From a virus: a stretch of DNA of 36,885 nucleotides. Position 1 is the first letter of the stretch. Every line of letters begins with the position of its first letter. Positions 1 to 34,230 of this stretch are shown piece after piece. The translations under genes were made by a program, and so were the position numbers. The notes beneath the pieces are model-generated. The model had not been told where the DNA came from. It saw only the letters and a list, made by a program, of their open reading frames with translations, and made no database searches. Location: the IMG/VR virus record IMGVR_UViG_3300042549_007610, positions 1-36,885 of that record; one strand, written 5' to 3'.

Positions 1-408
1 CCCCGAAAAATCCGCGCCGCGCCTAAACGCCCGGATCATCGCGCTGATGGCAAGCGCCTCGCGTTCGGCATCTTTGTCGGCCAGTACTTCGCGCACCAGC
101 TCGATCATTTCAACTTTCGCCGGGCTGTCCGGCGTCGGCAACGTCATTTCGGGACGCGGCGGCTCGTACCCGGCAAGACGCAGCAGCTCGGACACGTCCG
201 CGTTCAGGTAGTTTGCGATGCGGATCACGACCTCCGCAGATGGGCGAGTGCGTCCGGCGATTATTTTGTTGATTGCGGGCGCTTGCACGCCTACAGCTGC
301 AGCGAGCTTTCGCTGGCTGAGCCATTCGCCGTCCGGCCCTCGCCGGGTGCGCACTGCGTGATCGAGCCACGCGCCGAATGTGGTGCCTTGCTGCGTTGTT
401 GGATCCAT
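1..408 (-). CDS. XRE/CI-type repressor, open at window edge
   Basis: The reading frame starts at ATG 408-406 and stays open to base 1 (136 codons). Residues about 30-70 form a helix-turn-helix of the lambda-repressor/XRE type (SQRKLAAAVGVQAPAINKII, then AGRTRPSAEVVIRIANYL). The tail is helical and charged, with no sign of a LexA-type protease domain, so if it is a repressor it is a short one. It is divergent from the early operon, and the gap holds operator-like repeats and a consensus promoter, the usual lysogeny switch layout. There is no Shine-Dalgarno upstream, so a leaderless mRNA is possible, as for lambda cI from PRM. If the window ends are joined, the frame stops after four codons (SVTA), giving 140 residues. 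The DNA-binding fold is clear; the role as prophage repressor is inferred from position. Confidence 0.85.
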   Translation of the reverse strand, partial: MDPTTQQGTTFGAWLDHAVRTRRGPDGEWLSQRKLAAAVGVQAPAINKIIAGRTRPSAEVVIRIANYLNADVSELLRLAGYEPPRPEMTLPTPDSPAKVEMIELVREVLADKDAEREALAISAMIRAFRRGADFSG

Positions 409-423
409 ACAAAAAGCATACAC

Positions 424-485
424 GGAAAAGTTTCCTGTAAGCCATACCCGTGGCGGTTGACAATGTTTCCTGTAAGACATATAAT
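424..485 (+). promoter_or_regulatory. early promoter with repeated operator-like sequence
   Basis: TTGACA at 457-462 and TATAAT at 480-485 are separated by exactly 17 bases: a perfect sigma70 consensus promoter reading into the + strand early operon. The 12-base sequence GTTTCCTGTAAG occurs twice, at 430-441 and at 465-476. The second copy lies inside the promoter spacer, the first towards the repressor gene. Bases 424-435 also form a short inverted repeat (GGAAA-AG-TTTCC). These are the best candidates for repressor operators controlling both directions. The first copy would overlap any promoter used by the repressor. Repressor binding is inference. Confidence 0.85.
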
Positions 486-525
486 TCCCGCCATCACCGA
501 GAGCCAAGCGGTGAGGAGACCAGTA

Positions 526-831
526 ATGACCACAGAAAACGAAACCACCTCGCTGTGTCGCGCGTTCGCCGCGCAGGCGCAGCCGCACCGGGACGCGTAT
601 CGCGCCGGGCTTATCAGCTACACCGAGCTGCGTCGGCAGCTGCTCGTGCTGCAGGCCGAGCTCGGCTTTCAGCGCTGGCTTGCCGTCGGCACTAACGCGC
701 TGCTCAGCGACGCCGGCAAGCGCGACGCGCTCGGCCGCCGCGTGCAGCAGCAGCTCGACGCAGGGCACCCGCTCGTGCCGGCCTACCCGACGCGCGACGA
801 GCTGGCGATGATCGCCGGGGAGGCGCAGTGA
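526..831 (+). CDS. first early-operon protein, 101 aa, unknown
   Basis: This is the first gene after the early promoter. ATG 526 is chosen because GGAG at 514-517 lies a suitable distance upstream and the frame before it runs back through the promoter. The protein is mostly helical, with an N-terminal acidic stretch, a central segment rich in Leu and Gln (residues about 30-55) and a C-terminal RDELAMIAGEAQ. It has no cysteine pairs and no recognisable domain. Its position corresponds to that of cro or other early regulators in lambdoid phages, but I see no helix-turn-helix, so I assign no function. Its stop overlaps the next start (TGATG). Confidence 0.75.
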   Translation: MTTENETTSLCRAFAAQAQPHRDAYRAGLISYTELRRQLLVLQAELGFQRWLAVGTNALLSDAGKRDALGRRVQQQLDAGHPLVPAYPTRDELAMIAGEAQ

Positions 832-992
832 TGCCGAAGTCCCTGCCCGAGCTCGTCGCGCAGGTCGCGGTGCTGCTCGTCATCGCCGCCGTGTTCGTCG
901 GCGCGTCCGCGTGGGACGCCGAGGCCGACGCCGCGTACGCCCGCAGCCGCAGCTGCGCGGCCCAGCAGACGTGCGTCGGAGCGCTGCCATGA
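831..992 (+). CDS. small single-span membrane protein, 53 aa
   Basis: ATG 831 overlaps the previous stop codon. Residues about 8-27 (LVAQVAVLLVIAAVFVGASA) form one hydrophobic segment, followed by an Ala/Arg-rich tail with two cysteines (SCAAQQTC). It could be a membrane-anchored early protein, for example a superinfection-exclusion or host-modifying peptide, but nothing identifies it further. The tail CAAQQTC could form a disulphide if it is periplasmic. The tight overlap with both neighbours supports translation as part of the operon. It next overlaps a 36-residue frame by four bases (ATGA). Confidence 0.55.
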   Translation: MPKSLPELVAQVAVLLVIAAVFVGASAWDAEADAAYARSRSCAAQQTCVGALP

Positions 993-1099
993 TCCGGCAC
1001 GCCGTCGTCATCGCCATCGCCATCGGGCTGTGCATCGGATTCACCGCCCTCGCCGGTTCCGGCGTCATGCGCAGCGCTCACGTCGAGGTGCGCCCGTGA
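989..1099 (+). CDS. tiny hydrophobic peptide, 36 aa
   Basis: The frame runs from ATG 989, overlapping the preceding stop as ATGA, to TGA 1099, which overlaps the next GTG start. Residues about 3-24 are hydrophobic (HAVVIAIAIGLCIGFTALAG), so this would be a membrane peptide with a very short N terminus. It follows another single-span membrane peptide; such pairs of overlapping tiny membrane proteins are common in phage early and lysis regions. The evidence is only the four-base overlaps on both sides and the hydrophobic composition. It may not be expressed. Confidence 0.45.
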   Translation: MIRHAVVIAIAIGLCIGFTALAGSGVMRSAHVEVRP

Positions 1100-1392
1100 A
1101 TGCGCACATCATGCAGGCCGTCATCGACATGGCCGCGGCAGTGCGCGAAATGCGCGAAATGATTGCGTCGCTCGACTCGTCGCAGCCGCTCTACAGCGCA
1201 GCCGCCATGCGCGCGCTCGTCGCCGACTACACCGACGCGAGCGCGACCTGGTATTGCGAGGCCGCGCACTACGACGTCGACGACGACGCCTACGAGATCG
1301 TCGCCGGCTGGAATCACGAGGTCAACGGATACGCACGCGAGGCAAGCGCGTGCGCCGCAGACGCCGATGCGTTCGGCGTCACTATGTATTAG
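1096..1392 (+). CDS. acidic unknown protein, 98 aa
   Basis: GTG 1096 overlaps the previous stop (GTGA). An in-frame ATG at 1111 (codon 6) is the alternative start. The protein begins with a helical region containing the repeated REMREM motif, then an acidic central stretch (YDVDDDAYEIVAGWNHEVNGY), and ends in an Ala/Asp-rich tail. Several Trp and Tyr residues suggest a folded domain. It has no known motif. It lies directly before the RecT/Bet-type gene, separated by 11 bases, so it may belong to the recombination/replication group, but this is only context. Confidence 0.65.
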   Translation: MNAHIMQAVIDMAAAVREMREMIASLDSSQPLYSAAAMRALVADYTDASATWYCEAAHYDVDDDAYEIVAGWNHEVNGYAREASACAADADAFGVTMY

Positions 1393-1403
1393 TCAGGAGA
1401 AAT

Positions 1404-2225
1404 ATGGGAGCAATCGAAATCAGCACGCAGGCGCGCGAATTCAGCAGCGCCGAAATGGACGTCATCAAGTCCGTGATCGCGAAAGGCGCGACGGACGCAG
1501 AGCTCAAGATGTTCGTGGTCATGTCCGGCAAGCTCGGCCTCGACCCACTGAGCAAACAGATCCACATGGTCAAGCGCCGCGTGAAGCTGCCGAGCGGCGA
1601 CTGGAGCGACGCGATGACGATCGTCGTCGGCATCGACGGCTATCGGCTGGTCGCCGACCGCACCGGGCGCTACTGCCCGGGCCGCGCGCCGACCTACGAA
1701 TACGACGACGACGGGCGCGTGACGTCGGCCACGGCATACGTGCTCAAGCTTGCCGGCGGCGCGTGGCACGAGGTGTCGGCGATCGCGTTCTGGGACGAAT
1801 ACGCGCAGACGAACAAAGACGGCCAACCGACGGCGATGTGGGCAAAGATGCCGCGCTTGATGTTGGCGAAGTGCGCCGAGGCGCTTGTCCTGCGCCGGGC
1901 GTTCCCGGCCGAGCTCAGCGGCGTCTACACCGAGGACGAGATGGCGCAGGCAAGCAGCGAGCCGGCCGTCGTCCAGCCTGCCGTCGTCCGCCAGGTCGAG
2001 CCGCAGCCGCAGCCGGCCATTGCCGCGCCGCCTGACTGGAAGACCGAAATGATCGAGCTGGGCAAGCGTGCCGTCGAGGCCAGCAAGACGGCCGACGAGA
2101 CGACGGCAGCCGCACTCCTCGCCGCTGCGCAGGCCGCGCGCACCGCGCTCACAAAGAACGGCCACAGCACGCCTGAAGAGCGCGCGCTCGCGACCGGGAT
2201 GCTCAGGCGCGCCCTCGGCGAATAG
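1404..2225 (+). CDS. RecT/Bet-family single-strand annealing protein
   Basis: The 273-residue protein matches the phage recombination protein Bet/RecT family. Residues about 20-180 carry the conserved pattern: LKMFVVMSGKLGLDPLSKQI, a basic strand, IVVGIDGYRLVADRTGRY, then a Trp-containing strand, MWAKMPRLMLAKCAEALVLR and the closing FPAELSGVYTEDEM. Such proteins anneal complementary single strands during phage recombination and replication. The C-terminal third is Ala/Gln/Pro-rich and is probably a flexible linker plus interaction tail. The start at ATG 1404 follows CAGGAGA. A partner 5'-3' exonuclease of the usual types (lambda Exo, RecE, YqaJ) is not seen next to it. The gene is followed by the first of four conserved hairpins. 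Confidence 0.9.
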   Translation: MGAIEISTQAREFSSAEMDVIKSVIAKGATDAELKMFVVMSGKLGLDPLSKQIHMVKRRVKLPSGDWSDAMTIVVGIDGYRLVADRTGRYCPGRAPTYEYDDDGRVTSATAYVLKLAGGAWHEVSAIAFWDEYAQTNKDGQPTAMWAKMPRLMLAKCAEALVLRRAFPAELSGVYTEDEMAQASSEPAVVQPAVVRQVEPQPQPAIAAPPDWKTEMIELGKRAVEASKTADETTAAALLAAAQAARTALTKNGHSTPEERALATGMLRRALGE

Positions 2226-2236
2226 ACACGTGATCA

Positions 2237-2259
2237 GCCCGGCGCGTGCGACGCCGGGC
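2237..2259 (+). repeat. conserved intergenic hairpin H1
   Basis: Perfect 8-bp stem GCCCGGCG/CGCCGGGC with the 7-base loop CGTGCGA. It lies 11 bases after the recT/bet stop and 10 bases before ATG 2270. There is no U-tract, so it is not a normal terminator. It is related to hairpins at 3212, 3955 and (inverted) 33949. Confidence 0.85.
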
Positions 2260-2269
2260 AAAAATACAC

Positions 2270-2716
2270 ATGAAAAACAAAACGATAGAGGCCAAACCCG
2301 CAAATATCTGGCGAGAGATTGCCGAACGTGCGCTTGGCGCAGTCTCGAATATTCCGGTCGTAGAAGAAGAATTTACCGCCGAAAAGGCAATTGCGGGCCT
2401 TGCCTGGAATTTCGAATTCCAGCGCGGCAAAAAGCCCGCAGTCGTCAAGAACTTCCAGCGCATCATCGAAGATTTCAATTTTGCTTCCGGTTCAATGCTG
2501 CGCATTGCGCGAAACGACGCAGGAGACTGGGTGCTTATTGATGGACAGCATCGACTTGCCGCCATTGCCGCAAGCGGGGCAAAACTCTGGCTGCTCGTCG
2601 TAGTCGATTCAAGACCCGCAAGCCTGGCATACGCCAATATTGACAACGTTGGCACATTGCGATCGTCGCCCGATTCCGTACACAGCGAGCTCGGCTGGAA
2701 AACAAAAAAATACTAG
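2270..2716 (+). CDS. ParB/DGQHR-like protein, N-terminal part ended by amber
   Basis: ATG 2270 is chosen over an in-frame GTG at 2246, which lies inside hairpin H1. The 148-residue product carries DGQHRLAAI at residues 91-99, the hallmark of ParB/Srx-like and DGQHR-domain proteins, preceded by a strand pattern typical of that fold (MLRIARNDAGDWVLIDGQHR). The following IDN..TLRSSPDSV matches the region where such proteins continue into a helical domain. Here the frame hits TAG at 2714-2716, and the same frame is open immediately afterwards for another 160 codons, so this is probably the first part of one protein of about 310 residues. Codons are visibly A/T-richer than in the neighbours, suggesting recent acquisition. 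There is no Shine-Dalgarno. Confidence 0.75.
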   Translation: MKNKTIEAKPANIWREIAERALGAVSNIPVVEEEFTAEKAIAGLAWNFEFQRGKKPAVVKNFQRIIEDFNFASGSMLRIARNDAGDWVLIDGQHRLAAIAASGAKLWLLVVVDSRPASLAYANIDNVGTLRSSPDSVHSELGWKTKKY

Positions 2717-2722
2717 AGCTCG

Positions 2723-3205
2723 ATGGTTCCGGCTGCATACATTATTTCGCAATTGTTTGATCGAGAAGTCGTCAAAAAGTCATTAGTCCGAAACACCAGC
2801 GGCGTCACGGAATCAGCCGCAAAAATTCTTAGAAAATACAAGCCGACGTTTGAAAAATTCACCGAGCGGAATCGGGACGCAGCGGCAAGAGCCCCGTCCG
2901 CTGCGGTGTTGATAGTTGCGGCGCATTACCAGCCAGATAAATTCTGGCCGTTTTTTGAAAGAGCGCTTGCTGATGATCGACTCGCAAAAAACTGTCCTGA
3001 GAAAAAGTTGATCGCAATCTTTTCAAACAAATGCAGCCATCAAGACGACAGGCTAAGAGTGTGTATTCACACGATCCTGTGCTGGAATGCGGCCTACAAA
3101 AATCAAGAGCTGTTCAGCCTCCCAAAGCTTGACCAGAAAACATTAGAAGGTGCATCGATTCCTGCCATTCTTGGGACACCTTACACCGGCACTGAGAAAC
3201 AGTGA
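2723..3205 (+). CDS. C-terminal part of amber-split DGQHR-like protein
   Basis: This frame is the same as that of the upstream DGQHR gene and is separated from it by one TAG and two further codons; ATG 2723 could serve for re-initiation. It has no convincing Shine-Dalgarno. The 160-residue product is largely helical and basic (FDREVVKKSLVRNTSGVTESAAKIL opens the helical region), as expected for the C-terminal domain of ParB/DGQHR-like phage proteins, and MVPAAYIISQLF would be the helix right after the split. It ends 6 bases before hairpin H2. It could be a separate coupled product, a readthrough extension, or the remains of a broken gene. Confidence 0.65.
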   Translation: MVPAAYIISQLFDREVVKKSLVRNTSGVTESAAKILRKYKPTFEKFTERNRDAAARAPSAAVLIVAAHYQPDKFWPFFERALADDRLAKNCPEKKLIAIFSNKCSHQDDRLRVCIHTILCWNAAYKNQELFSLPKLDQKTLEGASIPAILGTPYTGTEKQ

Positions 3206-3211
3206 TTTATC

Positions 3212-3236
3212 GGCCCAGTGAGTGCGACGCTGAGCC
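3212..3236 (+). repeat. conserved intergenic hairpin H2
   Basis: Arms GGCCCAGTG and CGCTGAGCC pair with one mismatch and one T-G wobble around the 7-base loop AGTGCGA. It lies 6 bases after stop 3205 and 9 bases before ATG 3246. Compared with H1, the stem has an A-T pair in place of a G-C pair, so both sides have changed together. Confidence 0.8.
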
Positions 3237-3245
3237 AGCAAAATT

Positions 3246-3950
3246 ATGGGATACACACAGATTGATCCAATTGGGTGTTTTTCCGGCCAAAAAAATAAAG
3301 ACGAATACGTAAAGTTCTTCGCAACCATGATGCATGTAGAAGCCCCGTCTCCCAAGAAGAATTTTGTTTCGTTCTTGGTGTCGGCCGGAATCAGCAAGCA
3401 GGTTATTTGCCTGCACGTCTACGAAGACTATCAGCGCGACTGCGTAGATATTGCGAGCAAAAAAATTACAAGCGGAGATCAGGTATTGATCTGGGGAAAA
3501 GTGAAAGGCCTGTCTGCATTTGCTGGTCACAAAATGTACGGCGACGTGGCGCTAATTGCGTGCCACAAAGTGCAGCTCGTCAAAAAGTTGTTTACTTCGC
3601 AGCTTGAAGTTTTTGATCAGCTCATCAAGCAAAAAAAACAGCACAACGTCAAACCGGACTCGTACGAACTTGCCGAGTGGTGTTTTCAGCGCTGGCTGAA
3701 GGTTCCTGAAAATTGCACGCTGGTCAGAGAGTACGAAGTGCTCGGATACCGCGTGGATTTCATGCTTGTAAATCGCAGGACCGGCAAGCCGTATCACGCT
3801 TTCGAAATTGACGGCGCGCAGCATGATCGAAATCGAGAAGAAGACATCAAGCGAATGAAAGAAATTCGCAACGAGCTGCAAATTGAATTTACGCGATACA
3901 AAAACGAAGAGGTCTTTGCGATGTGCCGAAAAGACGGAATCGAATTTTGA
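3246..3950 (+). CDS. PD-(D/E)XK-type nuclease with N-terminal OB-like region
   Basis: 234 residues. The C-terminal third resembles DUF559/Vsr-like endonucleases of the PD-(D/E)XK fold: acidic residues near E162/E164, then YRVDFML with D171, then FEIDGAQH with E187, D189 and H193, followed by a charged helix (DRNREEDIKRMKEIRNE) and a closing strand. Residues about 40-110 alternate strands and turns (VICLHVYEDYQRD, QVLIWGKVKGL) in a way that suggests an OB-like nucleic-acid-binding domain; this part is tentative. The gene is A/T-rich like its upstream partner, and hairpins H2 and H3 bracket it. It could act as the missing recombination nuclease, a homing or exclusion nuclease, or a defence gene. 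No Shine-Dalgarno precedes the ATG. Confidence 0.75.
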   Translation: MGYTQIDPIGCFSGQKNKDEYVKFFATMMHVEAPSPKKNFVSFLVSAGISKQVICLHVYEDYQRDCVDIASKKITSGDQVLIWGKVKGLSAFAGHKMYGDVALIACHKVQLVKKLFTSQLEVFDQLIKQKKQHNVKPDSYELAEWCFQRWLKVPENCTLVREYEVLGYRVDFMLVNRRTGKPYHAFEIDGAQHDRNREEDIKRMKEIRNELQIEFTRYKNEEVFAMCRKDGIEF

Positions 3951-3954
3951 CAAT

Positions 3955-3977
3955 GTCCGGCGCGTGCGACGCCGAGC
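3955..3977 (+). repeat. conserved intergenic hairpin H3
   Basis: Stem CGGCG/CGCCG (3958-3962/3970-3974) around the loop CGTGCGA, identical to the H1 loop; outside it one mismatch, one wobble and a G-C pair extend the helix. It lies just after stop 3950 and about 12 bases before ATG 3989, closing the AT-rich cassette. Confidence 0.75.
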
Positions 3978-3988
3978 GTATTACCACT

Positions 3989-4285
3989 ATGAAACTCAGC
4001 GACTACGAAACCAGCACGCGAATCGAATTCAAGACGCCGCGCAGCTTCAGCCGGCAGCAGCGCCTGAAGCTCGTCGCGACGGCATACGCGCACCTGACCG
4101 AATGGACGTCGCCGCTGCCGCTGTGCGAGCGCGTCGAAGGCCTGCACGATGACAGGGGCGAGCTCGAGGTGCACTGGATCATGCAGCCGACCGAGCAGGA
4201 CATGCAGCAGTGGGACTGGCTTTGGAAGCACCTGTGCTACGAGCCGTGCACCCGGCACTATTTTGGCGGCAAGGAAATCGCATGA
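3989..4285 (+). CDS. unknown protein, 98 aa
   Basis: ATG 3989 follows hairpin H3 and has no Shine-Dalgarno. The protein has an N-terminal strand-rich part (EFKTPRSFSRQQRLKLVATAY), a helix, and a Trp-rich C-terminal half (EVHWIMQPTEQDMQQWDWLW). Base composition returns to the GC-rich pattern of the rest of the early operon, which marks the downstream border of the AT-rich cassette. It has no motif that I recognise. The stop overlaps the next ATG (ATGA), so it is translationally coupled to the following small genes. Confidence 0.7.
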   Translation: MKLSDYETSTRIEFKTPRSFSRQQRLKLVATAYAHLTEWTSPLPLCERVEGLHDDRGELEVHWIMQPTEQDMQQWDWLWKHLCYEPCTRHYFGGKEIA

Positions 4286-4557
4286 CGTACTACATCATCA
4301 TGAGCAAGGACTACGGCTATACGCACTCCGTCCCGCGGATCGCGTACGTGTCGCGCGCGTCCGCAGAAGCGGCTCTGCCGGACGGATCGCTCTACGTCGC
4401 GGAGATGCGCGGCGTGGACGAGTGCGCAGGCGCAGCCGTTGTCTACGCGACGCTTGGCTGGGTACACGGCGACGAGGACAACGAGTTCCGCATGCCGGGC
4501 TGGTGCTACCCGGCGCGATACAGCCCCGACAATCTCGCGTGGGAGGTGCGGCCTTGA
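4282..4557 (+). CDS. unknown protein, 91 aa
   Basis: ATG 4282 overlaps the preceding stop. The protein is rich in Tyr and acidic residues and looks like a compact alpha/beta fold: TYYIIMSKDYGYTHSVPRI strand region, AEAALPDGSLYVAEM, then AAVVYATLGWVHGDEDNEF and a C-terminal WEVRP. I recognise no family. It belongs to a run of six small genes (3989-6185) whose starts and stops overlap by one to four bases, typical of a phage early operon with host-takeover or replication-accessory proteins. Confidence 0.7.
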   Translation: MTYYIIMSKDYGYTHSVPRIAYVSRASAEAALPDGSLYVAEMRGVDECAGAAVVYATLGWVHGDEDNEFRMPGWCYPARYSPDNLAWEVRP

Positions 4558-4784
4558 ACGACGCGCTTTTCCTCGAAATGCTCAAGGCGACGACGCTCGC
4601 GCTGCGCGTCGCGCTCGGCCACGCCGAAGCGTCCTACGTGTCGACGGCGCGCACGATGGCCGGCGAGGTCATCACGGACGAGCGCTACCGCTCGCTGACG
4701 CCGACGCAGCGGGCCGCGATGGCCGACGCGGACACGGCGATCACGGACACCGCGAGCGCAGTGAAGGGGCTGAAGCATCGATGA
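4554..4784 (+). CDS. unknown helical protein, 76 aa, TTG start
   Basis: TTG 4554 is chosen because it overlaps the previous stop (TTGA) and GGGAGG ends about 7 bases upstream; ATG 4578 is the alternative. The protein is almost entirely helical (FLEMLKATTLALRVALGHAE, then ERYRSLTPTQRAAMADADTA). It has no cysteines, no membrane segment and no recognisable motif. The stop overlaps the next start as ATGA. Confidence 0.6.
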   Translation: MNDALFLEMLKATTLALRVALGHAEASYVSTARTMAGEVITDERYRSLTPTQRAAMADADTAITDTASAVKGLKHR

Positions 4785-5029
4785 ACAAGCGCGAAAAGCA
4801 GAAGCGTCTGCGCGCGGTCCTCGCGCAGATGGACGCGCTCGCAACGCCCGCGCCGGCCAAGCCCGTCAACGCGATGGGCGCTCGCGCAGCGCGCGTGCGG
4901 CTGTGCGTGTATGACGCGCGCCCGCTCGGCGCAGATTGCGAGCTGCGCGCGCGCGATCACGCGAACGAATGCGTCGAGGAACTGCGCGGGCTGATCCGCG
5001 CGGCGATCGACCGGGAGCTGCGGCGATGA
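4781..5029 (+). CDS. unknown basic protein, 82 aa
   Basis: ATG 4781 overlaps the previous stop codon, and the stop overlaps the next ATG at 5026. The N terminus is strongly basic (MNKREKQKRLRAVLAQM), followed by an Ala/Pro linker and a C-terminal helical part with two cysteines (RVRLCVYDARPLGADCELRA) and ECVEELRGLIRAAIDRELRR. The basic N terminus suggests nucleic-acid contact, but this is only composition. I do not recognise a family. Confidence 0.65.
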   Translation: MNKREKQKRLRAVLAQMDALATPAPAKPVNAMGARAARVRLCVYDARPLGADCELRARDHANECVEELRGLIRAAIDRELRR

Positions 5030-5808
5030 ATCACACCATTGCCGTCGTCTCACTCACGCGCCTGCGCGCGATGTGGCGCTCCGTCGAATACCTCGCACGC
5101 GGAGGGCATCCCGCGCCGATGGGCATCGACCTGGTGCACATCAGCGTCGCGGCGCAGGCGCTCACGCTGCTCACGACCGACGGCGTCGCCGCAGCGTGGG
5201 CGATCGAGCTGGTCGAGGCCGGCGACTGCGAGTCGTTCGGCGTCAACGCCAAAATGCTCGGCGACGAGTTGGACGCGATGCACCAGGCGGGCGCGGGCGG
5301 GTCGGTGACGCTCTCGCGCGTAGACGACTCGCTCGTCCTCGAGCTCGAGGGCGGCGTGCGCGCCGACGACGGGATCACGCGCGCGACCACGTGGCGCGTC
5401 CCGATCACGCCTTACACCGTCAAGGCATGGGGCTGGCTGACGCACCTGCGACCAGACGTCGCCAGCATGGATGTGCGGCCGTCGCGCATGGCGCTTCCGC
5501 TGTGCGACTGGCTCGCGCTGCACTACTGCGCCGGCGAAAGCCCGGAGCCGACGATCGCCATCGAGCGCGTCGTAGACGGCGGCGCCTTGATGGTCATGTC
5601 GCGCCCGGCCGCGCCCGGACACGGCGCGCAGGCGCTGCGCATCGGCGTGCAGACGTCGATGCTGCGAGCGGCGCTCAAACGATCTGGCGCGCACGCGATC
5701 CTGCGCATGTACGACCAGTGGCCGACGCGGCAGGGCGGCATCCGCATCGACGCCGACAACGGCAGCACGCACGTGATCTGCCCCTACACGCCCAAGGAGC
5801 TGAAGTGA
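5026..5808 (+). CDS. unknown 260-aa protein, possibly sliding-clamp-like
   Basis: 260 residues, ATG overlapping the previous stop. Several stretches recall the repeated alpha/beta units of DNA sliding clamps: SFGVNAKMLGDELDAM, then GGSVTLSRVDDSLVLELEGG, TTWRVPI, and later QTSMLRAALKRSGAHAILRM followed by GGIRIDADNGSTHVICPYTP. The total length is shorter than a bacterial DnaN (about 365), so it would be a two-domain or degenerate clamp. It has no cysteine cluster or catalytic motif. The placement downstream of the RecT/Bet-type gene fits a DNA-metabolism role. The clamp idea is a low-confidence reading of pattern, not a family match. Confidence 0.7.
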   Translation: MNHTIAVVSLTRLRAMWRSVEYLARGGHPAPMGIDLVHISVAAQALTLLTTDGVAAAWAIELVEAGDCESFGVNAKMLGDELDAMHQAGAGGSVTLSRVDDSLVLELEGGVRADDGITRATTWRVPITPYTVKAWGWLTHLRPDVASMDVRPSRMALPLCDWLALHYCAGESPEPTIAIERVVDGGALMVMSRPAAPGHGAQALRIGVQTSMLRAALKRSGAHAILRMYDQWPTRQGGIRIDADNGSTHVICPYTPKELK

Positions 5809-6185
5809 CGAGATTTTTGAACCTGACTCCGCATGTTGTGCGCGTCTACCTCGGACGCGCCGACGACCCGCTGCTCGAGCAGGACTTGCCGAGCCGCTGG
5901 CTCGTGCTCCCCGTGACGGGCCGCATCGCGCACGTCGACCAGGTCGACGACTACCGCCACGACATCGAGCGCGTGCGCGTCCTGCACCACAGCATCGGCG
6001 CGGTCACCGGCCTGCCCGACCCGGAGCCCGGCGTGATCTACGTCGTGTCGTCGATGGTCGGCCGCACCGCGATGCGCGCCGACTGCCTCTCGCCCGACAC
6101 CAAATCGGCCGCGATCTACGACGCGAGCGGCGAGATGTACGGCGTGCGCCGCATGCAGCGCTGGACAGCGCGAGGTGCGCAGTGA
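5805..6185 (+). CDS. LNLTPH-motif phage protein, 126 aa, unknown
   Basis: GTG 5805 overlaps the preceding stop (GTGA). The N terminus FLNLTPHVVRVYLG carries the LNLTPH motif that I recall from a widespread family of uncharacterised proteins in phages and actinobacteria. Later segments are strand-rich (GVIYVVSSMVGR) and contain DCLSPDTKSAAIYDASGEMYGVRRM. Such proteins look like small beta-rich enzymes or regulators, but no activity is known to me. The stop overlaps the next ATG (TGATG). Confidence 0.7.
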   Translation: MTRFLNLTPHVVRVYLGRADDPLLEQDLPSRWLVLPVTGRIAHVDQVDDYRHDIERVRVLHHSIGAVTGLPDPEPGVIYVVSSMVGRTAMRADCLSPDTKSAAIYDASGEMYGVRRMQRWTARGAQ

Positions 6186-6457
6186 TGTCCGTCGCCGTGG
6201 TGGACCTGCGCGGCAGGCCGACGATCGTGCGCCGTTTTTTGACCATTGGCGCGGCGTGCGAATGGATGGCGCGGCTCAGCGAGTCGCGCAGCTACGAGGT
6301 GTTCGCGTGCATAGGCGACGGCATCCAGCAGCTCGGCCGCGACGAGCAGGAACGTGTGCGCCGGATCCGCGCCGCGATGCACGCGCAATACATGGGCCGC
6401 ATCGGCGCGCTCTCCGGCCCGCGCTACGACGACGACGGGGAAGAGGTGCGGCCGTGA
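6185..6457 (+). CDS. unknown protein, 90 aa
   Basis: ATG 6185 overlaps the previous stop; GTG 6182 directly before it in frame is an alternative start. GAGGT lies about 10 bases upstream of the ATG. The protein has a short strand region (SVAVVDLRGRPTIVRRF), then AACEWMARLSESRSYEVFAC and a helical, Arg-rich middle (DEQERVRRIRAAMHAQYM), ending in an acidic tail. It has no recognisable motif. The stop overlaps the next GTG start. Confidence 0.65.
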   Translation: MSVAVVDLRGRPTIVRRFLTIGAACEWMARLSESRSYEVFACIGDGIQQLGRDEQERVRRIRAAMHAQYMGRIGALSGPRYDDDGEEVRP

Positions 6458-6729
6458 CACGCGAGGACCTGCTCTGCGCGCTCAACGCAGCCGGCTGGGA
6501 CGCGCGCACGGCTGCGCTCTCGCTGCACGTGTCAATACACACCGTGTACTGGAGCATCCGCTGGCACGGGGTGCAGGCGCTGCGGCCGTGCTCGGTGTGC
6601 GGCCGCGTGTGGGATCGCACGGGCAACCGACGCGTCTGCAGCGACGCCTGCCGCGTTCACGCCAACCGGACGCACGTGCGTCTGTGGAAGCGCAGGCGCG
6701 CCGCCGCTGCGCAGGGAGCGCGCTGGTGA
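6454..6729 (+). CDS. HTH plus zinc-finger protein, 91 aa
   Basis: GTG 6454 overlaps the preceding stop. Residues about 1-40 look like a helix-turn-helix (DLLCALNAAGWDARTAALSL, then HVSIHTVYWSIRWHGV). A four-cysteine zinc finger follows (CSVCG, 14 residues, CSDAC), then a very basic tail (RLWKRRRAAAA). The same pairing of helix-turn-helix and CxxCG...CxxxC finger occurs twice in the 330-residue protein at 35248-36240, so the two are probably related modules. A DNA-binding regulator is likely; the target is unknown. The stop overlaps the next GTG start. Confidence 0.7.
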   Translation: MTREDLLCALNAAGWDARTAALSLHVSIHTVYWSIRWHGVQALRPCSVCGRVWDRTGNRRVCSDACRVHANRTHVRLWKRRRAAAAQGARW

Positions 6730-7100
6730 TCGCTGTGCTTACGCTCACGTTGTCGATCAGCGCCTACACGCCCGGCGCCAACGCGATCAGCGGAGGCCGA
6801 ATCATGGCAGACGGACGCGCGCCTTTCTTCGGCGCGTTTGCCTGCCCGCACAACATCCCGTTCGGCTCGCGCGTGACGCTCATCGGCCGCGCAGCCGAAC
6901 GGGCGCGTGAGCTGCGGCTGCCGACGATCGGCGTCTGCGCGGATCGTTTCGCGCGGCAATACGCGAGCGGACACCTCGACGTGTGCATCCCGGACGGATA
7001 CGCCGGGCACAGCGACGCGGCGCGGCTGCGATGGGCGCGCGCGTGGGGACGCATGCGCGGCGAGGTTGTCATTGACACATCGACCGCAGGAGGTCAATAA
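6726..7100 (+). CDS. secreted 3D-domain protein (RlpA/MltA-like fold)
   Basis: 124 residues from GTG 6726, overlapping the previous stop. The first 20 residues are hydrophobic and may be a signal peptide. The body matches the 3D (three-Asp) double-psi barrel seen in MltA, RlpA-like and phage proteins: GGRIMADGR, GAFACPHNIPFGSRVTLIG, then GVCADRFARQYASGHLDVCI and a C-terminal WARAWGRMRGEVVI, with the conserved Asp residues in ADGR, ADRF and HLDV. Such domains act on or bind peptidoglycan. It lies far from the lysis cassette and next to the integrase, so it may modify the cell wall during infection or lysogeny rather than cause lysis. That role is inference. Confidence 0.7.
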   Translation: MIAVLTLTLSISAYTPGANAISGGRIMADGRAPFFGAFACPHNIPFGSRVTLIGRAAERARELRLPTIGVCADRFARQYASGHLDVCIPDGYAGHSDAARLRWARAWGRMRGEVVIDTSTAGGQ

Positions 7101-7288
7101 TGGATCACGAAGCAGGCGTCGCAACCGAGCCGCTGCCGTGGATTGTGGGCGTGCCAAAGCCGCCTTATGCAGACGACCCGTGGTTCGCCCGGTTCTGCCT
7201 GATTGCGGCGCAGATCATGATGGAGCATACATGTGGACAAGACGATGATGGACAAACAGCAACAGCAACTTGCGCAGGCGTGGAGTGA
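7100..7288 (+). CDS. unknown 62-aa protein overlapping the integrase start
   Basis: ATG 7100 overlaps the previous stop (TAATG) and is preceded by a strong GGAGGT. The protein is acidic with aromatic residues (LPWIVGVPKPPYADDPWFAR) and a short hydrophobic stretch (FCLIAAQIMM). It overlaps the 5' end of the integrase gene by 56 bases in another frame, which would couple the two. No family is recognised. The strong ribosome binding site is the main evidence that it is made; a role as a recombination directionality factor is conceivable from position but unsupported by sequence. Confidence 0.6.
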   Translation: MDHEAGVATEPLPWIVGVPKPPYADDPWFARFCLIAAQIMMEHTCGQDDDGQTATATCAGVE

Positions 7289-8957
7289 CGCACGCGTCTA
7301 CGGATACGTGCGCAAGTCGCTCGTGCTCGGCGAGGAGGACCGCATCTCCGAAGTCAAGCAGCGCGACGCGATCGCCGCGGAGTGCGCGCGCCTGCACCTG
7401 CCCGAGCCAGAGTGGCACGCGGATACGCAGGGGCATCGCAGTGGGCGCTACGAGCACACGCGCCCGGGCTGGCGCACGGTCAAGCGCCGCTTCCTGACGG
7501 CCGACAAGGCCGTGCTCGTGGCATACGAGCTCGACCGCTCGAACCGCAACGTGATGGCGATGGCGCAGCTCATTGAGACCATCCGCACGAAGCCGGATCG
7601 CTACCGGCTCGTGCTGGTGATGAACCGCTACGACAGCGCCCGCGACGGATGGGGTGCGCGCGAAATCCGCGCCCTGCTCGACGACGCGGTTATGGCGCAG
7701 TTCGAAAGCGACAAGGCGAGTGAACGCATGGCGGCGACGGCGCAGACACTGCGCCGGCACCTGGTGCCGTGGGGGCGTCCCGCATACGGATACATGCGCG
7801 TCGGCCGCGGCATGAAAGCGCGCCTTGTGCCGACGGCGTTTGCCGAGCAGCCGCGCATTGTGCTGCGCGCTTACGTCGCAGGCGAGGCGCTGCATCGCGT
7901 CGCAGCTCGGCTCAACGCAGCCGGCGAGTGGTATCACCGCCCGATCTTCCAGGACGATCGCACGACGCGCGTCCCGGAACCATGGACGCAGGAGCGCTGC
8001 GAGCAGATCGTGCGGCGCGTCATGCAGTACGCCGGATTTCTTGCGACCGGCTCGGGGCATGTGCGCATCCGCCCGATGCATCAGGCGCCGACGGGCAGCG
8101 TGATGTCGTATCACGCTGCCGAGTACGGATACGAGCGCTCGCCCAGCGTCGAGCCGATCATCGACGACGAGCTCGCCGAGCGCGTGATGGCGATGCGCGC
8201 CGCGTGGTCCAGTCGCTGGGACAAGTCGCCCAACAAAGCGTTCTGCTCGGTGCTCAGCGGGCTTGCTTACCACCAGGGCAAAAAGGTGCGCAGCCAGACC
8301 CATGACGGCATCCGGCGTTATCGCACGCGCACAGCTCCAAGCGTGTCGTGGTTGTGCGCGGACGTGGACCAGCGCATCGACCAGCGGCTCGGCGCGCTGC
8401 AGTTTCCGGCCGGCGTTATCGCGGGGATTCACGCCGAGCTCGACGCGATGCAGCCGAGTCGCCAGAAGCGCGCGAGCATCGACAAACAGCGCAAGCGCCT
8501 CGAGCGCGGCCTGCTCAACGTTGAGCGCCGCTATGCGCTTGGCGAAATCAGCGAAGACACGTATCGCGCGCTCGCCGCGGAATTCTCTGGCGGCCTCGGC
8601 GCGCTGCACATCACGCACGCCGTCCCCAAAGACCGCGTGGACCGCGCCATCGACGCGCTCAACGAGCTGGGCATCGCATTCGGGCGCGCGACGCCGCGGC
8701 AGAAGAACATGCTGCTGACGGCCATGTTCGAGCGCATCGATCTCGACGAGCGCGGCGAGGTTTGCGCCGTGCACCCGCGCAAATGGGCGCACGAGGCGTT
8801 CGGAGCGTTGCTGCGGGGCTGGCATGGGGCGTATGGTTACCAATCGCCCAGCGAACAGCTGTTATCTCCGAGTCTGGTAACACCGATTGACGCGACAGCA
8901 GCCGCTCACTGGCTGTTTTCGCGCGTGAAATTACACACCGAGGAAAAACAAAAATGA
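7233..8957 (+). CDS. large serine integrase
   Basis: 574 residues. GTG 7233 is chosen because GGAG ends 7 bases upstream; ATG 7245 and 7248 are alternatives. The N-terminal resolvase domain has the nucleophile in YVRKS (S29), then SEVKQRD, DTQGHRSGRYEHTRPGW and the arginine motif YELDRSNRN. The recombinase domain begins with GRPAYGYMR. A coiled-coil segment typical of serine integrases lies near residues 415-445 (RKRLERGLLNVERRYALGEI). The usual zinc ribbon is degenerate: at CSVLSGLAYHQGKK the CxxC pairs are missing and only single cysteines remain (CSV and WLC). It catalyses site-specific integration between attP and attB. It is the penultimate gene of the early operon, with only one small gene between it and the terminators. 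Confidence 0.95.
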   Translation: MDKTMMDKQQQQLAQAWSDARVYGYVRKSLVLGEEDRISEVKQRDAIAAECARLHLPEPEWHADTQGHRSGRYEHTRPGWRTVKRRFLTADKAVLVAYELDRSNRNVMAMAQLIETIRTKPDRYRLVLVMNRYDSARDGWGAREIRALLDDAVMAQFESDKASERMAATAQTLRRHLVPWGRPAYGYMRVGRGMKARLVPTAFAEQPRIVLRAYVAGEALHRVAARLNAAGEWYHRPIFQDDRTTRVPEPWTQERCEQIVRRVMQYAGFLATGSGHVRIRPMHQAPTGSVMSYHAAEYGYERSPSVEPIIDDELAERVMAMRAAWSSRWDKSPNKAFCSVLSGLAYHQGKKVRSQTHDGIRRYRTRTAPSVSWLCADVDQRIDQRLGALQFPAGVIAGIHAELDAMQPSRQKRASIDKQRKRLERGLLNVERRYALGEISEDTYRALAAEFSGGLGALHITHAVPKDRVDRAIDALNELGIAFGRATPRQKNMLLTAMFERIDLDERGEVCAVHPRKWAHEAFGALLRGWHGAYGYQSPSEQLLSPSLVTPIDATAAAHWLFSRVKLHTEEKQK

Positions 8958-9349
8958 CCACTACCCACACCGTGACCCTCTCGCTTGAGGACTGGTTGAC
9001 CATGACGCCGGTGCTCGATCGCGTGCTGTCTGCGCCGTATGCAGACATCCCCGGCAGCGTCGAGTCGGCGCGCCGGCTGATCCGCGTGCAGCGGCTGATC
9101 GATCGCGCGCGCGACGACAGCGGGCTGGAGCCGATCACGACGAGCCTCGCGAAGCAGTTCGGCGAAGCGAACGAAAAAACACAGCGCTACGATTTCCCCG
9201 ACGCAGCAAACTGGGCGCGCTACGTCGCCGGGCGTCGCGCGATCGTCGACGCCGAGGTAACGCTTGAGGTACCGCTGCTTGTCGCACGCGACATCAGCAT
9301 CCCGCTGAGCGCTGCCGAGCGCGCGGTCATCGCGCCGCTCCTCGCGTAG
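8954..9349 (+). CDS. unknown protein, 131 aa, last early gene
   Basis: ATG 8954 overlaps the integrase stop (ATGA) and is preceded by CGAGGAAA. The protein is mixed alpha/beta, with a helical Arg-rich middle (VESARRLIRVQRLIDRARDD) and a C-terminal part IVDAEVTLEVPLLVARDI that ends in a helix (SAAERAVIAPLLA). It lacks cysteines and membrane segments. Its coupling to the integrase makes an accessory role in recombination possible, but no helix-turn-helix of the Xis type is evident. It is followed by a double terminator. Confidence 0.7.
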   Translation: MTTTHTVTLSLEDWLTMTPVLDRVLSAPYADIPGSVESARRLIRVQRLIDRARDDSGLEPITTSLAKQFGEANEKTQRYDFPDAANWARYVAGRRAIVDAEVTLEVPLLVARDISIPLSAAERAVIAPLLA

Positions 9350-9481
9350 AATCGACGAACACGCCCGGCTTCCACGCCGCGCGAATGCCGGTCTGCCCTT
9401 CTTCCTCCGCCAAGATTTGGAAGTGCAGGCCGGTTTGCTTTTTCCGTTGTGCGGATTGCGCGGCCGCTCTTCGCGTAGAAT
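9342..9481 (+). repeat. 11-bp direct repeat flanking terminator 1
   Basis: TCGCGTAGAAT occurs at 9342-9352 (across the stop of the last early gene) and again at 9471-9481, bracketing the first terminator. This is the first non-coding DNA downstream of the integrase, so it is also the nearest place to look for attP, but I see no convincing 40-50-bp dyad typical of serine integrase sites. Confidence 0.4.
9388..9443 (+). terminator. early-operon terminator 1
   Basis: CCGGTCTGC (9388-9396) pairs with GCAGGCCGG (9425-9433) with one G-T wobble; inside, CTTCC and GGAAG form a second stem. TTTGCTTTTT follows at 9434-9443. It ends the + strand early operon. Confidence 0.85.
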
Positions 9482-9488
9482 AGCCAAG

Positions 9489-9536
9489 CCCGCACCTGGA
9501 CTCGATACACACCCAAGGTGCGGGTTGTTTGTTTTT
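9489..9536 (+). terminator. terminator 2 between convergent operons
   Basis: Perfect 9-bp stem CCCGCACCT (9489-9497) / AGGTGCGGG (9516-9524) followed by TTGTTTGTTTTT. The U-rich side serves the + strand; the same stem lies just beyond the stop of the minus-strand fibre gene (9539) and may also act on late transcripts. Confidence 0.85.
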
Positions 9537-9538
9537 CA

Positions 9539-12424
9539 CTAGCCGGTGATCGTGGCCCAATACGGGATGTAGCGCACCGCTGTGCCGACGTAGATTTTGA
9601 GCCAGCCGACGCTGTCGCGTGCCGTAGCGCCGTTCACCTTTACGGTTCCGTTGCCCGTGCTGACGCCGTTGGTCACATTGCTAAACCCGACCGTGGAAGC
9701 AGCGCCGGTGCCATCGCCTTCGACGGTCAGCAGTCCGGCGGCGCGCACCCTTCCAGTCCCGGCCGGCTGCAGCAACACACTGTCGTTGCCGTTGAGAGCC
9801 TGAACAATTGCTGCGCCTGACGAAGACCAGAAAAATTCAGCAACATCAGTATCGTTTGAGCTAAGCGTCATTCCGTGCGTCTGCGCTCCAGTGCCCTGTT
9901 TGTTCAAGTGCAGCGTGTCGCGCGGCGCGGCCGGACGGTTGCTGTTGCCGCCAGCGTGCACGAGCATGTTCCCGGTATTCCCCTCGAATTTGACGCGCTC
10001 ACCAAAGCTTTGTGAAACAAACGTCAAATCGGCATTGAATGGGCTTGTCGCGTTTGTGGCAAACTGAAGATATCCTTTCCGAGAAATGGTTGTGCCGGAT
10101 TCGTACTCAAGCGTAAACGCGGCCGATCCATTTTGCGCGTTTGTGGCAACGAGCTTGGTTGAGTTTCCCTGCATGTAGAGCTGCCCGGTCGTTGCAGCTG
10201 TGGCTGCGCCGACGTTGAGGCCGCCGGCAACCGTAGTGGATCCGCTCGTATACAGCGTGCCGGCTGCAGCGGCCGTGAAGTCCTGAGTGCTCGTAACGCG
10301 CAGTCCTTTCCCGTGCAAATTGATCGCGTTGGCGTCCAGGCGGGCGCTTGCGCTGTACGATGGGCCGCTTGCAGTGATTGTGACGGCCGAGTAGCTTCCG
10401 CCGCTTGTGGACGTGTCCTGCGCTTCGATCTTTATATCCGGCTGCGTCGCTCCGTAATTCAGCAACGACACAGTCGTCTGGACCGTGCCGTCGGTAAACG
10501 CGTAAAGGCCGCAAAACGTTGTGGAATTCGCGCTAAAACGATACCCGTTTACAGAGCCAAGCGACCCGCGCGACGAAACCCAGCTTACAAGCGAAATCCC
10601 GTCACTGTCAAGCGTGACGTCGCCGCCTCCGGCCTTGAGCGTGCCGTCGGTCGCGGCGTGCCATTGCAGCGTGCCGCTGTTGTAGCCGCCGATGCGGCCA
10701 AAGTAGTTTCCGCTTGACAGCTCGGACCAGACGCGCAGCCCGGTAAACGTCGCCGGCGACGCCGTGAGTGATCCTGCCCCCTGCCGGATCTCGCCGCTTG
10801 TGCCAATGTTCAGCACGTTGTCGATGCGCGCGCTCGTGCTGTCCATCGTAATCACTGCGCTGCCGGCCGCGTTGCGAATGGTCAGCGCTCCGGCCGTGTC
10901 CACCTGGAAGCGCGTCGTTGTGTCGCGGACCACGCGAAAGCCGTTGTTCGAGTCCACGGCCACAAACGTCGCCGCGCTGTTGCCTGCCGCGAATCCGAAC
11001 GTATCTGCGCTATAGCCGTAGCTGCCGTTCAGGTTGCCGAGGCGCGCGCGAAGAGCTGCGTCCGACCACGGGCTTCCCGCGGTGGTCTGCGTGCTGATGT
11101 TTGGCGCAGCGCCGATCGTGCCGTCCGCGCTCAGCGTCACCGCGCCGCCGCCGGACGCCGCGCCCCAATCCACAATCGCCGTGCCGGAGGGCACGAGCGC
11201 GCTTGTGCTGCCGGACTGCAGGCGCAGTGTGTAAGTGCTGTAGCCTGTCGCCGTGGTCGGCGCGGCGTCGACCGTAAACCACGCCGCCACGAGCGCCGTT
11301 CCGTTCCACGCGCGCACTTGCAGCCGGTCGCCGCTGGCGAACAGCGCCGTCGTGCTGGCCGGCGTCGCGTTTTTGATCTGCACGCCGCTGACCGTGGTGT
11401 TGGTTGCCGCGGGCGTCGTGAAATCTGCATGCACGACGGACGCACTGTAGTAGACGCCAAATGTCCCAGCCGTGGCGCTGACTTCGTTAAACCGAAACAC
11501 CGCGGCTGCGAGCTCTCCGCGGATGCGCACGTTGCCAAATTCCGCAGCGCCGTCTGCGCCGATGCGCCATCCACTCACGCCGGACTGGTAGGACGTGGAT
11601 TCCATGGCGTCGCCGCTTCCGAGCGCGAGCACGTCGCTTGCCTTGCGCGAGAGGTCCACGTCGCCCGTGCCGGATCCGATGCGCAGCGTCTGTCCGGCGC
11701 TCACCGTCGCGCCTGCGCCGAACACGGGACGCGCGCTGTGCGTGTGCACGCCGCTCCAGCCAAACGCGTATGCCTGGTTGACGGCGACGGTTGACGTGAG
11801 CACGCTGATGCCCGCGCCCGCGCCGACGGCGAGCTCGCCGCTGCTGAACGACAGGCCGCTCGTCGTCGCGCGTCGCACGCGCACGGCGTCCGTGTCTGCC
11901 GCGATGCCGTCTCCGGCGCCGACGGCGAGCGTGAACGACGCGCCGAGCGTGCCGTTGCCGGTCAGGCCCGCGCCTGCCGTGATCGCTGTGCTCTGCAGCG
12001 CGTAGCGCGTGTCCGCCGCGCCCTGAAAATCCGACAGCGCCATTGCGCGCATGGACACCGCGCCGCTCGAGGAGGCCGGCGTTGCCGCGAACAGACCGGC
12101 CGCACCGCTCGGGAGCGTGTGATGGCTGCCGAGCCAGTCGTGCGGGCTGGGCGTGCCGCCGACGACGGATGTGCCGCCGACCGACGACGCGCCGACGGAC
12201 ACGCTCGGCATCCCGCTGCCGCCGCTGCCATACACGACGTACTGCCCGTCCTGGTAGGCGACGCGCACATGCGCGCCGGCATACGTCGCACCGACGAGCA
12301 GCGCCGACGGGATCACCGCGCCGGTCGACAGCTCGATCTTTGCGCGGCTGTTCGTGACGCTGAGCACGGTTGCGCTCCGCATCGGTTCGTCGCGCCTGCC
12401 TACCTCGCCCAGAAAGTCGCTCAT
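9539..12424 (-). CDS. tail fibre / receptor-binding protein, 961 aa
   Basis: This is the last late gene. The 961-residue protein is low in charge and extremely rich in Gly, Ala, Ser and Thr, with long runs of strand-turn repeats (for example LSADGTIGAAPNIS, LTIRNAAGSAVITMDS), the style of trimeric phage fibres. The N terminus (VLSVTNSRAKIELSTGAVIP) resembles the attachment part of tail-tip fibre proteins. The C terminus GWLKIYVGTAVRYIPYW is a compact tip motif found on many fibres. No intramolecular chaperone domain or enzymatic motif is visible. The ATG overlaps the stop of the 1549-residue tail gene (ATGA), so the two are co-translated. Host range is probably set here. Confidence 0.85.
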   Translation of the reverse strand: MSDFLGEVGRRDEPMRSATVLSVTNSRAKIELSTGAVIPSALLVGATYAGAHVRVAYQDGQYVVYGSGGSGMPSVSVGASSVGGTSVVGGTPSPHDWLGSHHTLPSGAAGLFAATPASSSGAVSMRAMALSDFQGAADTRYALQSTAITAGAGLTGNGTLGASFTLAVGAGDGIAADTDAVRVRRATTSGLSFSSGELAVGAGAGISVLTSTVAVNQAYAFGWSGVHTHSARPVFGAGATVSAGQTLRIGSGTGDVDLSRKASDVLALGSGDAMESTSYQSGVSGWRIGADGAAEFGNVRIRGELAAAVFRFNEVSATAGTFGVYYSASVVHADFTTPAATNTTVSGVQIKNATPASTTALFASGDRLQVRAWNGTALVAAWFTVDAAPTTATGYSTYTLRLQSGSTSALVPSGTAIVDWGAASGGGAVTLSADGTIGAAPNISTQTTAGSPWSDAALRARLGNLNGSYGYSADTFGFAAGNSAATFVAVDSNNGFRVVRDTTTRFQVDTAGALTIRNAAGSAVITMDSTSARIDNVLNIGTSGEIRQGAGSLTASPATFTGLRVWSELSSGNYFGRIGGYNSGTLQWHAATDGTLKAGGGDVTLDSDGISLVSWVSSRGSLGSVNGYRFSANSTTFCGLYAFTDGTVQTTVSLLNYGATQPDIKIEAQDTSTSGGSYSAVTITASGPSYSASARLDANAINLHGKGLRVTSTQDFTAAAAGTLYTSGSTTVAGGLNVGAATAATTGQLYMQGNSTKLVATNAQNGSAAFTLEYESGTTISRKGYLQFATNATSPFNADLTFVSQSFGERVKFEGNTGNMLVHAGGNSNRPAAPRDTLHLNKQGTGAQTHGMTLSSNDTDVAEFFWSSSGAAIVQALNGNDSVLLQPAGTGRVRAAGLLTVEGDGTGAASTVGFSNVTNGVSTGNGTVKVNGATARDSVGWLKIYVGTAVRYIPYWATITG

Positions 12425-33443: not shown

Positions 33444-33938
33444 ATGACTAAGATCACCATCAAAGCCACGCTCATCGGCAGCACCAGCCCCAAAGACATC
33501 GTCATCGCCACGTGGGACGGCCGCAACTGGACCGGCGACGCAGCGTTCACTTCGAGCTCGACCGAGCAGCAGATCATCGACGAGCAGTGGGCGTGGGTCC
33601 AGCTCGGCGAAGCGCTCGACGAGGGGCACAAGTACGGCGAGTTTGAGATCGCGGACAGCGGCACGTGGCGCTGGACCATCGAGGACGTCGACGGCGCGCC
33701 GTTCATGCCGAGCGCGACGGAGCAGCAGCCCGGCCTCAGCGTCGGCGAGCTGCAGCGCGAAGACGCGCGCACGCAGCTGTTGCAGCGCATTGCCTACCAG
33801 TGCACAGGCAGTGGCCAGACCGAAACGGCATTCCGCCAATCTGTCCGGCGCGAATACCCCGACCTGAAGCTCGGCCGCGACGAATGGGCGCGCGTCCTGC
33901 GCTTCCGCGACGGCGTAATCGAGCGGATGGGCCGCTGA
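33444..33938 (+). CDS. unknown acidic protein, 164 aa, own promoter
   Basis: ATG 33444 follows ACAGGAGACCAGAACC. The protein begins with a strand-rich half (TKITIKATLIGSTSPKDIVI, ATWDGRNWTGDAAFTSSS), then acidic regions with Trp (EQWAWVQLGEALDEGHKYGE, TWRWTIEDVDGAPF) and a helical C-terminal third (REDARTQLLQRIAYQCTGS, then ARVLRFRDGVIERMGR). Transcribed alone from a consensus promoter on the opposite strand from its surroundings, it has the layout of a lysogenic-conversion (moron) gene or a regulator. I recognise no family. Confidence 0.75.
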   Translation: MTKITIKATLIGSTSPKDIVIATWDGRNWTGDAAFTSSSTEQQIIDEQWAWVQLGEALDEGHKYGEFEIADSGTWRWTIEDVDGAPFMPSATEQQPGLSVGELQREDARTQLLQRIAYQCTGSGQTETAFRQSVRREYPDLKLGRDEWARVLRFRDGVIERMGR

Positions 33939-33948
33939 TCGCGATTCC

Positions 33949-33971
33949 GCCGGGCGTCGCACGCGCCCGGC
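33949..33971 (+). repeat. conserved intergenic hairpin H4 (inverted copy)
   Basis: Perfect 8-bp stem GCCGGGCG/CGCCCGGC around the loop TCGCACG, which is the reverse complement of the H1/H3 loop. It is followed by GCTTTTCTTTT, so it could also terminate transcription. It lies 10 bases after stop 33938 and 13 bases before ATG 33985. A C-G pair in H1 is G-C here: a compensatory change. Confidence 0.82.
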
Positions 33972-33984
33972 GCTTTTCTTTTCC

Positions 33985-34230
33985 ATGTCACACATACGCA
34001 ATCCCGACGGCGCGCCCGTGACGCGCTGGCAGGCGTGGGTCGGCGACGCGGTCGCCGTGACCATCGACGGCGTCGAGCTGGTCGGCACGGTCGCCTCGAT
34101 GGCGCGCGGCCCGATCGCCCGCATCATCATGACCGACGGCCGCACGATCGCGCTGCGCATGGTCGCGCACGCCGAACGCCCCAAGCGCAAACCACGCGGT
34201 CGAGGCATCATCGCTCCTCCCACACCGTGA
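33985..34230 (+). CDS. unknown small beta-rich protein, 81 aa
   Basis: ATG 33985 follows hairpin H4 without a Shine-Dalgarno (the upstream sequence is pyrimidine-rich). The protein has a short barrel-like pattern (TRWQAWVGDAVAVTIDGVEL, VGTVASMARGPIARIIMTDG, RTIALRMVAHAE) and a very basic tail (RPKRKPRGRG). It may bind nucleic acid. It overlaps the convergent VRR-NUC gene by 23 bases at the 3' ends. Expression depends on readthrough of H4 if that acts as terminator. Confidence 0.6.
   Translation: MSHIRNPDGAPVTRWQAWVGDAVAVTIDGVELVGTVASMARGPIARIIMTDGRTIALRMVAHAERPKRKPRGRGIIAPPTP

Follow-up and report, generated by a model that had tools for sequence, protein, structure and literature searches.

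Two described systems come nearest, judged by published descriptions, to the repeated element reported here. PeSLs of T4-like phages (Arbiol 2010; Comeau 2014) are described as promoter-terminator composites (PMC4503421, PMC3950731). SAS and ESAS occur in cluster K mycobacteriophages; the former is asymmetric, conserved and 13 bp long, and the latter has conserved 17-bp arms around a variable spacer of 4–13 bp (PMC3203893). The element described here was found in a window comprising the whole of a 36.9-kb IMG/VR virus record (66% G+C). It is a hairpin with an invariant centre and variable arms of 8–10 bp, and the family comprises 19 copies in six phages (four in the window, five in G004, four in G006, and two each in G007, G008 and G009). 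Most members lie in a variable gene array 3' of a gene for a single-strand annealing protein.

A first-pass annotation had reported four window hairpins, each a GC stem capped by the heptaloop NGTGCGA; all four were confirmed at those sites. H1 (2237–2259, plus strand; GCCCGGCG[CGTGCGA]CGCCGGGC; 39.4 bits) follows a RecT-family single-strand annealing protein gene (1404–2225, plus; Pfam PF03837, 5.6e-27; phrog_2780), and orthologous sites are present in G004, G006, G007 and G008. The accessory gene 3' of H1, which carries an IDGQHR motif (2270–3205, plus), is broken by an in-frame TAG at 2714–2716; correcting the annotation, the ORF 3' of H1 and the ORF at 2723–3205 are one gene, and its intact G006 homologue reads through to the contig edge. 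H2 (3212–3236, plus; GGCCCAGTG[AGTGCGA]CGCTGAGCC; 35.2 bits), whose stem contains one C-A mismatch and one T-G pair, precedes an accessory gene with a C-terminal DUF559-like nuclease domain (3246–3950, plus; Pfam PF04480, 8.2e-5), a distant homologue of which is in the G008 array. H3 (3955–3977, plus; 35.4 bits) folds around CGTGCGA 5' of the MKLSDYETS gene (3989–4285, plus). H4 (33948–33972; 38.2 bits) is in family orientation on the minus strand, where its loop reads CGTGCGA. Stop-to-stem and stem-to-start distances are 11 and 10 nt for H1, 6 and 9 for H2, 4 and 11 for H3, and 10 and 13 for H4, so the annotation's spacing of 4–11 and 9–13 nt between stop and start codons was accurate, as were the compensatory stem differences that it named. 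Searching with the pattern SSSSSCGTGCGASSSSS returned 3 matches against 0.38 expected, a number reached by 1 of 100 shuffles. Folding in local context gave H2 and H3 no advantage over shuffled sequences (z = -0.04 and 0.61), which counts against the mRNA-hairpin explanation that we favour below.

Related contigs were brought in through RecT and DNA-pattern searches, and comprise G004 (near copies G003 and G010), G006 (near copy G011), G007, G008, G009 and G001/G002. TerL is 85% identical to that of the window in G007 and 38–46% identical in G001, G004, G008 and G009, and the kinship of G006 rests on RecT (65%), a phosphoesterase-like protein (79%) and a VRR nuclease (61%). Searches of phage records with the locus DNA, RecT, TerL, serine recombinase and phosphoesterase-like protein returned distant relatives or none; the serine recombinase (PF00239), encoded at 7233–8957 of the window, had no relative among 50,697 phage records.

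The family stands apart from background. The annotation had called for a covariance-model search of related phages, and had named random placement inside genes without covariation as the outcome that would speak against its reading; the members we recovered are intergenic and their stems covary. A covariance model (R1) built from all 19 hairpins scored them at 35–42 bits with cmsearch, compared with 30 bits for the best non-member and 27.5 for the best hit in other viral sequence totalling 417 kb. Across the six related phages, GTGCGA is also the commonest heptaloop hexamer of strong hairpins: it occurs 21 times, whereas 15 Markov controls gave 0–4. Two of these occurrences, at window 11879 (minus strand) and its counterpart in G007, are intragenic and were left out of the family. 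G001 has no member despite a RecT 64% identical to that of the window, and the distribution is therefore patchy. Within IMG/VR, the core GCCSGGCGNGTGCGACGCCSGGC occurs only in contigs of this clade. The same core pattern found five look-alikes in GTDB genomes, scattered in unrelated bacteria; two of the five are U-tailed, and no prophage was identified at any of them. None of 4227 Rfam families matched, either at the gathering threshold over the whole window or at E values up to 1 over 2150–4050.

Other hairpins were noticed in these genomes. Late genes of the window carry a second repeated intergenic family (minus strand, 20859, 27724 and 31992) of the form AACCGCTTGTGCGGC-CTC...GAG-GCCGC, followed by TTTTTTGTTTTCC and then a start codon; this family is also in G001 and, in part, in G007. 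In G004 and G006, a long hairpin with the loop GTGCGAT in a different register (L096:872-900, L097:6742-6766) lies 5' of an oppositely transcribed gene group, and this class, C[GTGYGAT]G, may represent the same recognition sequence in a second form, a suggestive match with too few cases to claim. A small second hairpin lies 3' of the AAAC hairpin (L096:4735-4760, L097:10280-10303, L111:7375-7390) and varies by matched pairs, GCTGG-TAGAG-CCAGC in one form and GCCCG-TAGTT-CGGGC in the other.

In the 19-row alignment, the apex reads G-Y-G[N GTGCGA]C-G-C: the loop and three apical pairs are invariant or nearly so, and the base before GTGCGA is A or C. The lower stem varies in matched pairs, with a covariation of 0.409 against a shuffled mean of 0.142 (reached by 0 of 500 shuffles; slid controls at most 0.090), a value inflated by the shared ancestry of the copies and by the members having been found partly through their stems. 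The cleanest case of matched change is therefore the orthologous hairpin after TAGTCC, whose arms are AAACGTTGCG/CGCAGCGTCT in G004 and AAACGCCGCG/CGCGG(T/C)GTCT in G006 and G009, and which includes a T-A to C-G replacement. A structural constraint on the element is supported. The annotation had gone further, reading compensation as selection on RNA structure. Constrained base pairing holds up, given the covariation; the assignment to RNA does not follow, because the departures within the eight inner pairs, all single transitions, comprise five G-U (G-T in DNA) and three C-A pairs. Their distribution lacks a strand preference and does not decide between RNA and DNA constraint, and palindrome-correcting mutation could also yield the matched changes.

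All 19 members lie between a stop codon and a start codon, and 17 are oriented with transcription. The stem-to-start distance is 9–34 nt except at G004_AAAC, where the next ATG is more than 100 nt away. A promoter-like TTTACA-17-TATACT stands between that hairpin and the next gene, which again counts against a role in the mRNA. The annotation had correctly found no Shine-Dalgarno before the four downstream ATGs of the window, and had suggested that the hairpin may take its place. Such a substitute would serve in ribosome recruitment. However, all 15 relatives' sites keep a Shine-Dalgarno-like run (AGGAG, GGAG or GAGG) between hairpin and start; at G004_AAAC it was assigned from the ATG (AGGAG), and an upstream GTG picked automatically was set aside. 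The hairpin thus accompanies the Shine-Dalgarno rather than replacing it, and substitution is highly improbable.

Could H1–H3 and the relatives' copies be weak intrinsic terminators or attenuators that tune relative expression within the operon? Their GC-rich stems, the U-rich tail of H4 and the U-tailed look-alikes of two bacterial genomes would fit such a role. Nevertheless, a U-tract in the sense direction is missing after 18 of the 19, including H1–H3 and every relative's copy, the sole U-tailed member being the flipped H4 on the plus strand, and a terminator scan did not detect H1–H3; we consider this reading improbable. A duplex-DNA operator bound by a phage regulator is more improbable still. 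An invariant 6-bp core within inverted arms, in an orientation that can be reversed, would suit one, but the arms are not conserved and differ by matched pairs, the sites are intercistronic, and a promoter scan of window positions 1–10000 placed sites at 457 and 7072 only, with nothing promoter-like near H1–H3.

Genes change on both sides of the element. We chose 105 cross-phage pairs in which the upstream and the downstream proteins were both non-homologous by BLASTP. Identity in these pairs stays at 24–27% from -100 to -11, rises to 63% across the 5' arm and peaks at 97% over the loop block; the two blocks after it have 39% and 31%, and beyond them identity is at background. Individual junctions tell the same story. 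The MINTDT gene shares the hairpin core and CAGGAGACAC between G004 and G006, where the upstream genes are unrelated, and the hairpin before the MEITTNED gene follows MNKAIT in G007 and the annealing-protein gene in G008. Conversely, G004 and G007 have a 23-bp hairpin and ACTGGAGAACAC in common with unrelated downstream genes, and G006 and G009 have about 75 bp in common around the AAAC hairpin, with differing downstream genes. In G008, the apparent first codons of the MKLSDYETS gene remain 5' of the second hairpin. On these sequences the element is dispersed and sharply delimited, with genes exchanged around it, and the junctions and the 105 pairs together bear out the annotation's idea that it marks module borders. 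Exchange around the linkers is seen as a pattern; that the hairpin may cause it is a proposal.

The annealing-protein gene itself varies at this position (window 1404–2225; L142; L143): its core is RecT in the window, ERF in G008 and a third type in G007, with the C-terminal tail and the next hairpin kept among the three.

These patterns bring in the main rival to an RNA role, a DNA-level module-border linker. According to this reading, the repeat is kept as a short homology for annealing-protein exchange of single-gene cassettes, its symmetry arising by intrastrand quasipalindrome correction and its flips by recombination between the inverted arms. The conservation of the element between unrelated neighbours, its position beside RecT, ERF or the third annealing-protein type, the flipped copies in the window and G008, and stem departures without strand preference are all consistent with it, and the effect would be comparable to that of T4 PeSLs or lambdoid boundary sequences. 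Yet divergent stems lower the very homology that exchange would need, the apex alone being invariant, and 17 of the 19 copies point the same way. Some exchanges also lack a hairpin: none precedes MKISDYETS, the G007 homologue of the MKLSDYETS gene, and G007 lacks a match to the gene at 4282 of the window. We therefore hold the DNA-level linker to be somewhat unlikely. A site-specific recombination site that moves cassettes, with a 7-bp central region of tyrosine-recombinase or attC-like type, might also account for the asymmetric 7-bp centre between inverted arms, the flips and the cassette-like genes between copies. It is very improbable, however, as the arms are unconserved, attC boxes and extrahelical bases were not seen, and the only recombinase recognised, in a non-exhaustive check for tyrosine recombinases, is the PF00239 serine recombinase, a type that does not use such sites.

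The loop is reversed relative to transcription in two copies: H4 and, in G008, the one that follows the annealing-protein gene. The flips leave the arms unchanged, because these are inverted repeats. By its upstream flank (GGGCGAATAGACA...ATCAGCCCGGCG), the flipped G008 site is orthologous to H1, and an IMG/VR scan for flipped elements with a Shine-Dalgarno after them matched G008 alone from this clade. H4 lies between genes at 33444–33938 and 33985–34230 (both plus). Viewed on the plus strand, the strand of these genes, its loop reads TCGCACG and its tail is CTTTTCTTTT, a terminator-like arrangement. It is absent from the closest relative, G007, where the homologues of its flanking genes (62% and 61% identical) directly overlap, and a comparable region of G001 holds a terminator with similar arms, the loop TTTAGCG and U7. 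H4 is best read as a plus-strand terminator made from a flipped family copy.

This origin also bears on the annotation's suggestion that H4 RNA could form a kissing-loop contact with H1 and H3. Seven loop bases are indeed complementary, and the opposite-strand loop of the long hairpin in G004 and G006 contains TCGCAC. But the complementarity comes automatically with a flipped copy, H4 is missing in G007, and G007, G008 and G009 have no U-tailed counterpart carrying a complementary loop. The suggestion fails on these grounds, and such a contact is barely credible.

With just short of an even chance in its favour, the explanation that we tentatively prefer is intercistronic punctuation of the early mRNA, with cassette exchange as a consequence. 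Four features favour a role in mRNA: the structural constraint, the fixed apex, the single orientation that prevails and the location after stop codons. The hairpin would fold in the early polycistronic message directly 3' of each stop codon and punctuate it in one of two ways: it would protect or define RNA ends, or it would insulate neighbouring cistrons. A phage-encoded or host factor may recognise its apex, as the invariance of the apex sequence alone suggests. Because many cassettes have a 25–40 bp linker in common beside an annealing-protein gene, the hairpin would also offer short homology for exchange, and exchange at shared linkers would leave reading frames intact. A more specific claim is that the GTGCGA apex is an RNA recognition site, bound downstream of every cistron in the early operon by a factor from phage or host. 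We regard this claim as doubtful; the flipped orthologous copy in G008 argues against loop-specific recognition, which would not tolerate a flip. If the apex were such a site, it would be an array-wide RNA tag, and acquired cassettes with the hairpin would come under common post-transcriptional control.

How, then, does the element compare with the systems already described? Like PeSLs, it is a short intergenic stem-loop repeated at gene borders where shuffling is intense, and it recurs at the borders of exchanged genes. PeSLs as described also contain an early promoter and a stem-loop terminator with a U-tract; here, the scan of window positions 1–10000 and the one promoter-like site after the G004 hairpin place no early promoter within the element, the other sites leaving a mere 10–34 nt from stem to start, and among H1–H4 and the relatives' copies only the flipped H4 has a U-tract. 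The invariant loop, covarying stem and unrelated host clade likewise set it apart from PeSLs in their published description. As with SAS and ESAS (PMC3203893), there are many copies per genome, just 5' of the starts of some small genes and almost all in one orientation, and ESAS contains inverted repeats. The SAS 13-bp sequence GGGATAGGAGCCC, which stands at translation starts, is absent from the stem-to-start sequence at all our sites, and in place of conserved 17-bp arms around a variable spacer the element has variable arms around a fixed centre, the reverse of the ESAS arrangement. Lambdoid boundary sequences (concept via PMC3029335) are alike in being short conserved sequences, as described there, at module borders with differing flanking genes. 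A GC stem with a U-tract on the transcribed strand, as in intrinsic terminators, is found in H4 on the plus strand and not in H1–H3 or the relatives' copies. To our knowledge, lambdoid boundary sequences are not structured repeats that occur several times within one gene array. T4 CUUCGG hairpins and T7 RNase III sites are intercistronic hairpins of phage mRNA, the T7 ones being processing sites, and their loops and architecture differ from those of the GTGCGA element. The element appears to belong to none of the PeSL, SAS/ESAS, T4 CUUCGG or T7 RNase III families, PeSLs being distinguished by their description and the T4 and T7 hairpins by what is generally known of them.

Matched pairs and mapped junctions make this a concrete case of a structured element that remains constant as the flanking genes are replaced on either side, so that the use of dedicated structured linkers in phage gene shuffling becomes directly testable, and the element serves as a signature for accessory-gene arrays of uncultured phages. 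So far unnamed and of putative function, it resembles the known hairpins that separate phage genes.
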